Shown here: positions 10,967 to 28,403 of the stretch, one piece after another
Layout of the letters: each line of letters opens with the position of its first letter
Numbering within the stretch: position 1 is the stretch's first letter
From: Rhizomicrobium sp.
Lineage (GTDB): Bacteria; Pseudomonadota; Alphaproteobacteria; Micropepsales; Micropepsaceae
DNA: 35,346 nt
Assembly: GCA_031291635.1 (NCBI GenBank)
Contig: JARLIR010000049.1
Location: forward strand, 1-35,346
Direction: 5' to 3'
Notes under the pieces: model-generated
Databases searched by the model: none
Told to the model about the DNA's origin: nothing
The model's input: the letters and a program-made list of their open reading frames with translations, nothing else
Made by a program: the position numbers and the translations under genes

Positions 10967-12073
10967 TTACGCCGCCAATTTATCCAGCGCCTTCAGGATC
11001 GCATCGGTCATCGCGGTGGTGCCGATTTTGGTCATGCCCGGCTGCATGATGTCACCAGTGCGATAGCCTTCGGCCAGTACCGCTTCCACCGCTTTGTCGA
11101 GCAGCACGGCATCTTCGATGCGGCCAAAGGAGTAACGCAGGCACATGCCGAAGCTGAGCAAAGTGGCAATCGGGTTGGCCAAATCCTTGCCCGCAATGTC
11201 CGGCGCCGAGCCGTGGATGGGTTCATAGAGCGCTGGCTGGCGGCCATCAGCGCCCTTGGCACCAAGAGAGGCAGACGGGAGCATCCCGATGGAGCCGGTA
11301 AGCTGCGCCGCTTCATCCGACAGGATATCGCCGAACAGATTGTCAGTCAGGATGACGTCGAGAGTCTTGGGCGCGCGTACCAGCTGCATGGCGCAATTGT
11401 CGGCCAGAATGTCCGTGAGCTGAATATCGGGATATTCGGCCTTGTGCACGGCGTGTACGACTTCGCGCCACAACACACCGGTCACCATGACATTGGATTT
11501 TTCGGCCGAGGCCACACGCCCTGAGCGCAGCCGCGCCAGTTCGAATGCCACGCGGGCGATGCGCTCGATCTCATGGGTGTAGTAAATCTGCGTGTCGACG
11601 GCGCGTTTTTCGCCGTTGGCCAGGGTGACCATTTCTTTCGGCTGACCGAAATAAACCCCGCCCGTCAGCTCGCGCACGATCAGAAGATCAAGCCCGGCGA
11701 CGATTTCCGGCTTCAAGGTCGAGGCATCTTTCAGCGCATCGAAACACAGCGCCGGTCGCAGATTGGCGAACAATTTCAGGTCGCCGCGTAAGCGCAACAG
11801 ACCACGTTCCGGCTTCTTGTCGAAGGGCAGCTTGTCCCATTGCGGTCCACCAACGGAACCGAACAGCACCGCATCGGCGGCCAAGGCTTTGGCCATCATC
11901 GCATCGGTGGCAGGTTCGCCATGCGTCTCATAGGAAATGCCGCCGACCAGATCTTCCTCGGTGGTGTAAGCAAAGCCGCGGTTCTTGCCGTACCAGCCGA
12001 GCACGCGCTTGGTGGCTTCGAGGACTTCTGGCCCGATGCCGTCACCAGGGAGAAGGAGGAGATTATAGGTCAT
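10967..12073 (-). CDS. leuB: 3-isopropylmalate dehydrogenase
   Basis: Catalyses the NAD-dependent oxidative decarboxylation of 3-isopropylmalate, the third dedicated step of leucine synthesis. Signatures: [12 protein letters not shown] at residues 5-16 and [10 protein letters not shown] near 75. [10 protein letters not shown] near 140 carries the substrate-contacting Arg, and [24 protein letters not shown] near 244-267 binds Mg and [17 protein letters not shown] near 287 follows. The start at ATG 12073 ([10 protein letters not shown]) has AAGGG upstream. The alternative ATG at 12094 lies inside the palindromic repeat and is less likely. Length 368 is normal. It follows leuD on the same strand, 147 bp apart. 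Confidence 0.95.
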
Positions 12074-12089
12074 GGTCGTCACCCTTTTT

Positions 12090-12212
12090 GTCATGGCCCG
12101 CTACAGCGGGCCATCCAGATGGAGTGGGCTCAGGCGGGGAAGAATGTGTTCTTCGCTCTGGTCCCAAGTGGTACAGACGAAACCTGGGTGGCCCGCTGTT
12201 GCGGGCCATGAC
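12090..12212. repeat. REP-like paired palindrome between leuD and leuB
   Basis: Two hairpins face each other. The left one is ATGGCCCGC-TACA-GCGGGCCAT and the right one is TGGCCCGC-TGTT-GCGGGCCA. The outer ends GTCATGGCCCGC and GCGGGCCATGAC are inverted copies. Between them GAAGAA-TGTG-TTCTTC forms a third small hairpin. The element shares the GTCATGGCC edge with that at 10859-10943. It sits between two genes of one pathway, where it could stabilise or split the leuD-leuB mRNA. Confidence 0.8.
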
Positions 12213-12220
12213 AGCTCTTC

Positions 12221-12826
12221 CTAAAGCCAAGGCGCCTGCAGCTTGCGGGCTTCTTCATAGCCCGTAATTTCTTTTTCATGCTGCAGCGTCAGGCCGATAT
12301 CGTCCCAGCCGTTGAGCAGGCACTGGCGGCGGAAGGGATCGACCGTGAAGGCAATTGTGCCGCCATCCGGCCCGTGGATTTCCAGGGCTTCCAGATCAAT
12401 CGAGACAATGGCATTGGCGCCGCGGCTGGCATCGTCCAGCAGCTTGTCGATTTCGCTCTGCGGCAGGGCGATGGGCAGAATGCCGTTCTTGAAGCAGTTG
12501 TTATAGAAAATATCGGCGAAGCTGGGAGCGATGACGCAGCGAATGCCGAAATCGAGCAAGGCCCAAGGGGCGTGCTCACGGCTCGAGCCGCAGCCGAAAT
12601 TGGCGCCTGCGATCAGGATCTTGGCGCTGCGATAGGCCGGCTTGTTGAGCACGAAATCGGGATTTTCGCTGCCGTCGGGCAGCGTCCGCATCTCGTGAAA
12701 CAGCGCCTGGCCGAGCCCGGTGCACTTGATGGTTTTCAAAAATTGCTTGGGGATGATCATGTCGGTATCGACATTGATCATCGGCAGCGGCGCCGCGACG
12801 CCGGAGAGTTGCGTGAATGCTTCCAT
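12221..12826 (-). CDS. leuD: 3-isopropylmalate dehydratase small subunit
   Basis: Small (swivel-domain) subunit of isopropylmalate isomerase, which pairs with LeuC to convert 2- to 3-isopropylmalate. Signatures: [16 protein letters not shown] near residues 19-34, [21 protein letters not shown] near 71-91, and [18 protein letters not shown] near 102-119. Length 201 is typical. The start ATG at 12826 gives the standard [16 protein letters not shown]-terminus. LeuC, its obligate partner, is not next to it: upstream is the divergent EncFtn gene. Downstream on the same strand is leuB. Confidence 0.95.
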
Positions 12827-12925
12827 GGCGGGCGGGTTTTAGCGGCTCAGACCGGCTATAACAAGCGCTGTCCTTGTATTGAAATGATCGTGCGCTAAGC
12901 TGCCGCCATAAGAAGGGGGCAAGCC

Positions 12926-13345
12926 ATGTTCAAATTCCTGTTTGGCCGCAAAAAGCCAACTTTCGCACCCGCTCCGGCGCCTGCTGCCGCGATTTCTCCG
13001 CCGCCCCCGCCCGCGCCTATTCCGGTGGTGACTGGTGGCGGCGAGGGCATCCACATCCCGCCGCACAAGCTGTCGCGCCGCAACCTGCATCTGCATTACG
13101 CCATTTCCTCCCTGCGCGAGGAGCTGGAAGCGGTGGATTGGTACCGCCAACGCGCCGACGACACCGAAGATGCCGGGCTGAAGGCTATCCTGCTGCACAA
13201 TGCCGATGAGGAAATCGAGCACGCCGCCATGCTGCTGGAATGGATCCGCCGCAGCGAGCCACGCTTCGACAAGGAACTGAAGGAATACTTGTTTACCGAC
13301 GGCCCGATCACGGGCGTCGAAGAAAAGGCGATGGGGCGGAGCTAG
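12926..13345 (+). CDS. Encapsulated-ferritin (EncFtn)-like ferroxidase with Pro/Ala-rich N-terminal extension
   Basis: Residues about 52-129 match the EncFtn family of two-helix ferritin-like proteins, which form a decameric ring and oxidise Fe(II). The iron-site residues known from Rhodospirillum rubrum EncFtn (Glu32, Glu34, Trp38, Tyr39, Glu62, His65) correspond here to Glu66, Glu68, Trp72, Tyr73, Glu96 and His99, in EELEAVDWY and DEEIEHAAML. Two features are odd. Residues 1-47 are an extra leader: a basic, aromatic MFKFLFGRKK followed by a Pro/Ala-rich linker. The chain ends at about the end of the ferritin domain (LFTDGPITGVEEKAMGRS), without the C-terminal LTVGSLR-type peptide that targets cargo into encapsulin shells. 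No encapsulin gene is in the window. ATG 12926 follows AGAAGGGGGC. A hemerythrin gene lies 102 bp downstream. Confidence 0.85.
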   Translation: MFKFLFGRKKPTFAPAPAPAAAISPPPPPAPIPVVTGGGEGIHIPPHKLSRRNLHLHYAISSLREELEAVDWYRQRADDTEDAGLKAILLHNADEEIEHAAMLLEWIRRSEPRFDKELKEYLFTDGPITGVEEKAMGRS

Positions 13346-26679: not shown

Positions 26680-27537
26680 TTACGGCAATAAGCGGGCAAT
26701 CCATTCCGGCAAGGCGAAAGCGGCGGCATGGACGGCCGGATTGTAATAGTCGGTCTTCAGCTTCAGGCGCTTGAAGGCGCGCGTGGCTTTGGCGATGCCG
26801 GCGGGCGTGCCCAGGCGGGCGCCTTTGCCCGACCAGGAGAGCGCCATGAAGCCGCCGATATAGGTAGGAACCACAGTCAGATAGAGACCGGAACGCGGGA
26901 AGAAGGCTGCCAGTTCTTTCAGCGCCTCGGTGATCTCGCCAGGCTGATAGAAGGGCACGCCGGTCTGGAATGTGGCGAAGCCGCCGGGCTTCAGCGCCCG
27001 CTTGATGCGATCGTAGAAGGTTTCGCCGAACAGCGCCTTACCGGGGCCGATGGGATCGGGCCGGTCGCCGATGATCAGGTCGAAGCGGGCTTTGTTTTCG
27101 GGGCGTGCCAGAAACTCGAAAGCGTCGGCGATTTCGATCTTGAGGCGCTTGTCGCGGAAGGCTTTGGCGTTGATCTCGCCGAAATGCTTCTTGCACAGCT
27201 CGACGACCTTGCCGTCGATATCGACAAGAATCACTTCTTTGATCGCCTTATGCTTGAGCGCTTCGTCGGCGATGGAAAGGTCGCCGCCGCCAACGATCAT
27301 GACGCTTCTGACCTTGCCGTGTTCCAGGATCGGCAAATGTGTCAGCATTTCGGCGTAAGCTGATTCGTCGCGCGTGGTGATCTGGACGACGCCGTCGAGC
27401 GTCATGACGCGACCGTTCATCGGCGTGTCGAAGATCTTGATGTGCTGGTATTGGCTCTTTTCGTCCACCAGCGGTGCTCCGGAAAGCTCCATCGTCTGGG
27501 CGTAACCCTTGTGCAGGCGTTCTTTGAAGTTTGTCAT
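26680..27537 (-). CDS. speE: Spermidine synthase (polyamine aminopropyltransferase)
   Basis: Transfers the aminopropyl group of decarboxylated SAM to putrescine, giving spermidine. Signatures: the IVGGGDLSIADEALKH block (residues 81-96) for dcSAM binding, VDIDGKVVELCKKHF near 105-119, and LIIGDRPDPIGPGKALFGETFY near 154-175 with the catalytic Asp158 and Asp161. YIGGFMALSWS near the end is also typical. Two positions differ from consensus: GGGDL in place of GGGDG, and DRPDP in place of DSTDP. Length 285 is normal. Start ATG 27537 has GAGGGAC just upstream. It diverges from speD, which makes its co-substrate. Confidence 0.93.
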   Translation of the reverse strand: MTNFKERLHKGYAQTMELSGAPLVDEKSQYQHIKIFDTPMNGRVMTLDGVVQITTRDESAYAEMLTHLPILEHGKVRSVMIVGGGDLSIADEALKHKAIKEVILVDIDGKVVELCKKHFGEINAKAFRDKRLKIEIADAFEFLARPENKARFDLIIGDRPDPIGPGKALFGETFYDRIKRALKPGGFATFQTGVPFYQPGEITEALKELAAFFPRSGLYLTVVPTYIGGFMALSWSGKGARLGTPAGIAKATRAFKRLKLKTDYYNPAVHAAAFALPEWIARLLP

Positions 27538-27771
27538 GTCCCTCAGGCCTCAGAGCGATTTTCGGTGTCGCGCTTTTAGGTCTCGCTGCAGCGCGTGGCA
27601 AGGGCGCACACGCCAAGTTGGGTGTACCGCGTACATACGGCTTTGTTTTGCCGCGCTGGTTATCACACTGTCATTTTGCGCCTGTGCGCGCCCTTAAGTT
27701 CCCGGCAAGAATTATGACAAGGATCGCGACACAGGCGCGGCAAAAAACTTTGCAGGGGGGTGACAAACCGC
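27538..27771. other. speE-speD divergent intergenic region, left part
   Basis: The 234-bp left part of the gap between the two spermidine genes. It holds no protein-coding frame I can support. It should contain the leftward speE promoter, but I could not identify a convincing -35/-10 pair by eye. The speD promoter and leader occupy the remainder of the gap. Confidence 0.4.
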
Positions 27772-27799
27772 TTGCATAGGGGGGGGGTACGAATATATT
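27772..27799 (+). promoter_or_regulatory. sigma70-like promoter of speD with G9 spacer run
   Basis: TTGCAT (27772-27777) and TATATT (27794-27799) lie 16 bp apart, a good -35/-10 pair. The spacer contains nine consecutive G residues (27779-27787). The promoter would start transcription near 27806, giving a leader of about 120 nt before speD. Confidence 0.65.
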
Positions 27800-27825
27800 G
27801 CGCGCCGTTCTCTTCGGGGAACTGA

Positions 27826-27862
27826 GCGGCACGAGGGCCTTCCCTCGGGCCGCTTTCTTCTT
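27826..27862 (+). terminator. Terminator-like hairpin in the speD leader (possible attenuator)
   Basis: GCGGC (27826-27830) pairs with GCCGC (27849-27853), and CGAGGG (27832-27837) pairs with CCCTCG (27842-27847), with one 1x1 internal mismatch and a CCTT loop. The stem is followed at once by TTTCTTCTT. This is the form of an intrinsic terminator and lies about 65 nt before the speD start. It suggests attenuation or a riboswitch-like control of speD. Confidence 0.6.
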
Positions 27863-27926
27863 GAGGCGCCCACCACCGCGAGGCGGGGGGCACAGGTGTC
27901 AACACTCTGAGAGGGTAGGTGCCAGG

Positions 27927-28403
27927 ATGGCTCGACTCGAACTCGTGGCAGCGATCAAAGAAGCAAAGGCGCCACGCGCCCGCGCGACTGCGAGGACTGT
28001 CCCGGTTCCTATTCCCCCTGGGGATGAGGACCGCAAGGACCACTTCATCACTCGTAACGGACTGACCTATGCGGGAAGTCACCTGATAATCGATTTATGG
28101 GACGCCGAGGGTCTCGACGACCGTGATCGGATCGAAGCAGCATTGATTGATGCTGTGAATGCAGCGGGGGCGACCCTTCTGCACATTCACTTGCATACTT
28201 TCGATGATGGCGGAGGCGTTTCAGGCGTCGCCGTTCTCAGCGAAAGCCATATCAGCGTTCATACTTGGCCGGAAAAGAAATACGCGGCTTTCGATGTCTT
28301 CATGTGCGGAGATGCCGAACCTCGCAAAGCTCTTGCCGTGTTCAAGGCTGCCTTCAATCCAGGACGGCTGGTCATCGGTGAACATAAGCGCGGCGTGCTC
28401 TAA
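27927..28403 (+). CDS. speD: S-adenosylmethionine decarboxylase proenzyme (class 1b)
   Basis: Decarboxylates SAM to dcSAM for spermidine synthesis. The proenzyme self-cleaves before a Ser that becomes a pyruvoyl group. The cleavage motif LSESHISVHTWPE is at residues 104-116; cleavage is expected between Glu106 and Ser107. The conserved His112 and Cys127 (DVFMCGD) match the processing and catalytic residues of the Thermotoga enzyme. GLTYAGSHLIIDLW at residues 45-58 is the usual start of the core. The first 40 or so residues are an extra basic extension. Start ATG 27927 is preceded by AGAGGGTAGGTGCCAGG. The frame is open upstream to 27798 but would run through the leader hairpin. Confidence 0.93.
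   Translation: MARLELVAAIKEAKAPRARATARTVPVPIPPGDEDRKDHFITRNGLTYAGSHLIIDLWDAEGLDDRDRIEAALIDAVNAAGATLLHIHLHTFDDGGGVSGVAVLSESHISVHTWPEKKYAAFDVFMCGDAEPRKALAVFKAAFNPGRLVIGEHKRGVL

Follow-up and report, generated by a model that had tools for sequence, protein, structure and literature searches.

EncFtn proteins assemble into decameric rings, with N-termini that protrude toward the central channel from both ends and C-termini on the circumference, as described in the text available of a 2016 study (PMC5012862) and a 2024 review (PMC11202242). According to the same portions of these two sources, the central channel may contain N-terminal residues that remain unseen and is the proposed entry route of Fe(II), with exit of Fe(III) proposed at the outer side. 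Free R. rubrum EncFtn oxidizes iron and gives irregular precipitates, with no mineralization or storage in the absence of a shell (PMC5012862, available text). R. rubrum Rru_A0973 and H. ochraceum EncFtn belong to the FLP-TP proteins, which have a targeting peptide at the C-terminus and reside within an encapsulin. Tailless EncFtns have been named as well, as 'Non-EncFtn' in 2016 (PMC5012862) and as 's-FLP' in 2024 (PMC11202242). One of these is NE0167 of Nitrosomonas europaea (PDB 3k6c), a protein of 95 residues. The available part of the 2024 review describes encapsulation of the s-FLPs as unclear and lists a putative C-terminal signal (PMC11202242).

The window analyzed here, a 35,346-nucleotide stretch from Rhizomicrobium sp., carries at 12926..13345 on the + strand a gene for an EncFtn-family ferroxidase of 139 amino acids, N-terminally extended and lacking a C-terminal targeting peptide. 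Its open reading frame of 139 codons runs from the ATG at 12926 to the TAG at 13343-13345. A profile search matched residues 42-125, the EncFtn core domain (13049..13300, +), to PF22277 (EncFtn-like) with an E-value of 4.8e-37 and 126 bits against a gathering score of 27. The NCBIfam profile for encapsulin-associated ferritin-like proteins, TIGR04535, gave 121.1 bits, just below its curated cut-off of 125. By sequence, the best solved relatives are NE0167 of N. europaea (9.2e-30), H. ochraceum EncFtn (4.2e-28) and R. rubrum EncFtn (5da5; 2.3e-26).

Alignment with 5da5 places R. rubrum E31, E32, E34, W38, Y39, E62 and H65 at E65, E66, E68, W72, Y73, E96 and H99 of the window protein; all seven iron-site residues checked are kept. 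They include the ferroxidase residues Glu32, Glu62, His65 and Tyr39, present as E66, E96, H99 and Y73. The entry-site and ferroxidase residues E65, E66 and E68 (13118..13129, +) and the ferroxidase residues E96 and H99 (13211..13222, +) are invariant in 47 of 47 aligned rows. A preliminary description of this DNA had proposed an EncFtn-like ferroxidase with the iron-site residues retained, and both proposals are borne out. In the AF2 model, built with 25 aligned proteins, pLDDT exceeds 90 over residues 51-110 and averages 78.2 overall, while residues before 46 lack secondary structure and have block means of 45-73. The model predicts the two-helix EncFtn monomer fold, and the 50 Foldseek matches listed for it were all EncFtn chains, R. 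rubrum first, with TMt of 0.82-0.91. The window protein is thus like the FLP-TP proteins in core fold, E/E/H ferroxidase residues and entry-site Glu residues, and like NE0167 in EncFtn core, iron site and missing targeting peptide. It differs from the former in having no tail, and from NE0167, which has no leader, in its 139 residues, in a 40-residue leader plus linker and in its place in another part of the core-domain tree.

The chain ends in a short C-terminus (13301..13342, +) with no encapsulin targeting peptide in any frame. A targeting-peptide-like motif was absent from all three forward frames between 13250 and 13447, so a tail hidden by a frameshift, the case that the preliminary description had set against its own reading, is rejected; the chain does stop before the targeting peptide. 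A similar MG(R/K) stretch ends 12 of 13 leader-bearing proteins, the window protein among them. In the alphaproteobacterial class sample, 62 of the 65 genes with a strong EncFtn match were read for a tail, the remaining three belonging to the order set. The targeting tail was found in 15 of 15 encapsulin-linked genes and in 0 of 47 others. Tail and encapsulin shell occur together. The automatic tail rule missed the tail of L067, from Roseospira, in which F-T-I-G-A-I at the end of the EncFtn was recognized by eye; this was the only one of 80 genome-contig loci with an encapsulin match in the locus DNA. The same encapsulin tblastn gave a match at all 15 linked class-sample loci. A single-contig genome, G463, carries a tailed EncFtn adjoining encapsulin and a separate tailless copy (L121, L161), the latter counted among the 47. 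Loss of the tail is not specific to the window protein, since tailless EncFtns are already described in the available text of PMC5012862 and PMC11202242 and make up 47 of the 62 alphaproteobacterial genes read. What appears to be new is the form with an N-terminal leader; no printed record of such a leader on EncFtn was found in the literature searched, which covers few subscription papers.

Of the possible shells, which also include microcompartments and encapsulin Families 3 and 4, the search was confined to Family 1 encapsulin (PF04454) and SrpI-like encapsulin (PF19307). No PF04454 match was found in the assembly that contains the window, a metagenome-assembled genome only 82% complete, in agreement with the earlier remark that no encapsulin is encoded nearby. 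Among 96 genomes of the window's order, EncFtn occurs in 23, PF04454 in 4 and both in only one (G021), leaving 22 of the 23 EncFtn genomes with no Family 1 encapsulin. The leader form is present in nine of the order genomes (G000, G010, G017, G021, G026, G061, G065, G066 and G067). PF04454 is absent from eight of these nine, including the single-contig genomes G017, G066 and G067 (99-100% complete). PF19307 had no match in any of the 96 order genomes, those three included, in a run whose controls also gave no match. The same search did find matches in 3 of 130 phylum-sample genomes, and hence works. The encapsulin of G021 (L110:1115-2301) has beside it a small rubrerythrin-like protein ending in SGLGVGSLKK, a targeting peptide, and distinct from the EncFtn. 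With this tailed cargo of its own, the encapsulin was rejected as housing for the EncFtn.

A strong EncFtn match (PF22277 E of 1e-30 or better, with 12 genomes having only weaker matches, E above 1e-30, left uncounted) was present in 64 of 387 alphaproteobacterial genomes, 49 of which had no PF04454. In the other 15, an EncFtn has a strong PF04454 match no more than about 1 kb away. One further genome, G473, showed a weak PF04454 match only, and no EncFtn match. No Family 1 shell is thus available to most tailless EncFtns sampled in the class. In a phylum sample of 397 genomes, partly the same as those of the class sample, EncFtn scored above cut-off in 25 (a further 8 genomes below cut-off were not counted as EncFtn), and 21 of the 25 had no PF04454. 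In two of the other four (G516 and G534), the encapsulin is on a different contig or separated by about 2 Mb from a divergent EncFtn. The divergent PF22277 matches L217-L220 (E about 1e-23) come from one genus, and two of those four genomes have an encapsulin elsewhere; the tail reading extends neither to L217-L220, which its motif did not match, nor to L221-L225. Ten class genomes have an EncFtn that groups with NE0167 (L112-L120 and L122), with endings such as KPIAHK and KQIAHE. None of them has PF04454, which disfavors service of this type of ending for a Family 1 shell in those genomes. The window protein is very probably a shell-free EncFtn. These counts bear on the question, raised in the available part of the 2024 review, whether tailless EncFtns are encapsulated (PMC11202242).

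The N-terminal extension begins with the aromatic/basic leader MFKFLFGRKK (residues 1-10; 12926..12955, +), which holds three Phe and a net charge of +4, and is the same or similar in 12 other distinct proteins. It is followed by a Pro/Ala-rich linker (residues 11-40; 12956..13045, +) with 60% Pro plus Ala, compared with 13% in the core, and with no secondary structure in the model. The preliminary description was right that the leader is real, with an aromatic/basic start and a Pro/Ala linker; the 47 residues it gave are too many: with the PF22277 match beginning at residue 42, the extension is about 40 long. Three observations speak for translation of the leader: a G-rich, Shine-Dalgarno-like stretch precedes the ATG (12912..12919, +), although its match is of only 4 bases, AAGG, at a spacing of 9; no Shine-Dalgarno-like site precedes the GTG codons 34 and 35 (13025..13030, +), the sole alternative starts; and dN/dS of leader plus linker is 0.22 between the window protein and its nearest relative. 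The ideal-helix hydrophobic moment of the leader is 0.12, and lies at 0.12-0.35 in 11 of 13 leader proteins. Given this low moment and a model with no helix before residue 46, the leader is probably not a classical amphipathic helix.

Thirteen distinct leader proteins were collected. In every one, the 10 opening residues hold two or three Phe/Trp and have a net charge between +2 and +6, a composition that is partly a selection effect because the proteins were picked for an aromatic/basic start. Their linkers span 27-43 residues with 28-75% Pro plus Ala and a net charge of -2 to +1. The collection leaves out genes with an upstream in-frame ATG but a start of other composition (for example L116, L119 and L159). 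A rule drawn up once the leaders were known, which misses L014 and L022, both recognized as leaders by eye, finds a leader-like start in some frame before 14 of 153 genes, against 63 of 4,667 null windows (1.35%). With the start in frame and open, the figures are 12 of 153 genes against nulls of 112/39,200 (0.29%) and 59/14,280 (0.41%). Eight of these 12 are the window gene and its clade mates, and another, the encapsulin-linked L137, is probably a chance match. In six pairs, dN/dS was 0.21-0.59 for leader plus linker and 0.04-0.25 for the core, 1.6 to 6.8 times the core value. The leader is under purifying selection.

The core-domain tree was built from 151 rows (148 plus 3 references) and 92 columns, with duplicate 92-residue cores merged and truncated genes left out; many of its forks are unsettled because only 92 columns are available. 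A supported clade (96/94) unites eight leader proteins from two genera of the window's family, its own being one of them, while five others lie elsewhere on the tree. The starred branches force at least five leader changes, gains or losses. The preliminary description had raised the possibility that the extension defines a clade, but the leader as the mark of one clade is rejected (p-AU 0.000233). In L027 (1080-1290), an intact short EncFtn is preceded by a leader-like start that resembles the one of L014 and is broken by a stop codon. In L086 (1400-1500; genome G063), a leader-like start is out of frame with a leaderless EncFtn at the same syntenic locus, as if uncoupled. With leaderless orthologues at the same locus and the leader decayed (L027) or out of frame (L086), the leader is dispensable in some species.

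The start sites of the 13 leader genes fall into two groups. Six keep an internal ATG at the start used by leaderless relatives, in each case preceded at 5-11 bases by a 5-base Shine-Dalgarno match. Such a match precedes 691 of 20,701 ATGs of any kind (3.3%, the background) and is present in 86 of 134 short-only genes. The upstream leader starts have a 4-base match in seven genes of the 13, the window's included, and none in the other six; in the six dual genes the upstream match is of 4 bases at most. The short start should be favored in these six because of the weaker matches at the upstream starts, and long and short forms are both possible, so that the two may be produced side by side. An ATG at the short start is lacking in the other seven leader genes, including the window's. 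A count less biased by how the leaders were picked takes all 153 distinct genes: this ATG is missing in 13, of which six begin with GTG at or near the position, as judged by eye, and each of the remaining seven has the aromatic/basic start. In those seven proteins the leader should be present on every subunit, and in the window protein, which has no ATG at the start of its leaderless relatives, the leader is apparently obligatory.

Tentatively, and with a probability somewhat short of even, the window protein is viewed here as a free-standing, shell-free EncFtn ring ferroxidase whose N-termini tether the ring to the membrane. A protein of this kind must do something other than fill an encapsulin, because R. 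rubrum EncFtn cannot store iron without a shell, as stated in the text available of PMC5012862. As in its homologs, the subunits of the window protein would assemble into a decameric ring, their N-termini encircling the axial channel and their C-termini placed at the rim. As ring N-termini face the channel, the leader would sit on the axial faces and not on the rim that bears the tail in other EncFtns. Each subunit would present its aromatic/basic leader on a Pro/Ala stalk of about 30 residues, giving up to five leaders per ring face. A flexible stalk that carries a cluster of aromatic and basic residues suggests, by composition, contact with an anionic surface. The leaders might bind the anionic inner surface of the cytoplasmic membrane; as a membrane tether the leader is given nearly an even chance. 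The comparison is with FtsY, in which an N-terminal segment enriched in basic residues mediates membrane interaction according to the available text of PMC5533587. It is an analogy between short basic N-terminal segments, with no homology claimed, and lipid binding by the EncFtn leader is putative.

Held face-on to the membrane, the ring would oxidize Fe(II) near its point of entry and could pass Fe(III) to other acceptors, for example ferritin-fold proteins of the same genomes. Some acceptor would be needed by a shell-free ring, given the irregular precipitates formed by free R. rubrum EncFtn (PMC5012862, available text). Candidates may exist, as three to five PF00210 ferritin-fold proteins per genome are encoded in four of four genomes checked; none is tied to the window protein by evidence. 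In the dual-start relatives, leader-bearing and leaderless subunits could mix in one ring and make the number of anchors adjustable. A possible but doubtful extension is that translation sets the anchoring valency, with both forms co-assembling in dual-start species and all ten subunits anchored in the window's lineage, in which the inner start is lost. If the membrane-tethered ring is correct, the Fe(II) entry channel sits at the membrane, and ferritin-type ferroxidases have a third use besides cages and encapsulin shells. As the leader accompanies a conserved internal start in some species and is forced on the ring in others, the site of ring action is directly testable.

Several other readings of the leader were weighed against the membrane tether. 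The working protein may be the leaderless ring, with the leader a tolerated, slowly drifting 5' extension of little function. This would fit the leaderless orthologs that occupy the same locus, the decayed leaders of L027 and L086, a dN/dS above that of the core, and the internal start and ribosome-binding site kept in six leader genes whose upstream starts reach at most a 4-base match. It is nevertheless unlikely, since the internal ATG is gone in seven proteins, the window's included, and the aromatic/basic start recurs in separate lineages at a frequency above the null. A more extreme version takes GTG 34 or 35 as the true start and leaves the leader untranslated. These codons are in frame, and leaderless orthologs begin near there; yet the missing Shine-Dalgarno-like site and the purifying selection on the leader sequence speak against them, and L005, L101 and L106 have no ATG, GTG or TTG at all between leader and core. 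Such a start is extremely improbable.

If the leader is functional, it could contact something other than the membrane. Some Dps proteins have Lys-rich tails, and on this model the leader would be a basic tail that binds nucleic acid or some other anionic polymer, with the ring protecting DNA locally from Fenton chemistry. This agrees with the positive charge (net +2 to +6) of the 10 opening residues in all 13 leader proteins, although the proteins were picked partly for it. The two or three Phe/Trp found in every one, subject to the same selection caveat, and the linker charge of -2 to +1 fit a membrane better, and the nucleic-acid tail is considered quite unlikely. Very unlikely is a leader that directs the ring to another protein compartment or partner, such as an unlinked encapsulin, a microcompartment or the adjacent hemerythrin. 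N-terminal domains that mediate encapsulation are known for some cargos (PMC11202242, available text), and G021 has both a leader EncFtn and an encapsulin. That encapsulin has its own tailed rubrerythrin-like cargo, however, and the single-contig genomes G017, G066 and G067 have a leader EncFtn with no PF04454 or PF19307 match. The bacteriohemerythrin gene (NF033749; 13448..13855, +) lies 102 bases downstream of the window's EncFtn gene, but among the loci compared a hemerythrin neighbor is limited to the window and two close relatives; with only three genomes sharing it, hemerythrin was rejected as a conserved partner.

The leader as a tag common to other proteins was not supported. A degenerate leader pattern gave six matches in five genomes, compared with five for a reversed control pattern, and the pattern is not sensitive, as it misses the leader of G066. 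Three of the six matches are EncFtn leaders, one opens a 15-codon frame and two fall in other proteins, presumably portal proteins judging from their translations.

Gene order was compared over 34 loci, made up of 17 of the 80 genome-contig loci and 17 others, several of which overlap on the same contig stretch. In the window, the EncFtn gene has a divergent PF00694 neighbor (12221..12826, -), which we take to be LeuD-like, followed by a PF00180 gene (10967..12094, -), assumed here to be LeuB-like; both are frequent neighbors in relatives. The LeuD-like gene adjoins leader copies (L002, L003, L005, L007, L174, L175, L176 and L178) and leaderless copies too (L006, L008, L017, L035, L185 and L188). 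Most LeuD-flanked loci have a Kir-type channel gene and a LON-domain gene farther on. No LeuD-like neighbor was seen at L004, L014 and L022 or beside the second copies in L177 and L179. Two EncFtn genes each occur in G065 (L096 with L107) and G067 (L095 with L106): one at the leuD locus in leader-only form, the other leaderless and from a different part of the tree. Elsewhere in the window (26680-28403), spermidine synthase and S-adenosylmethionine decarboxylase genes adjoin divergently.
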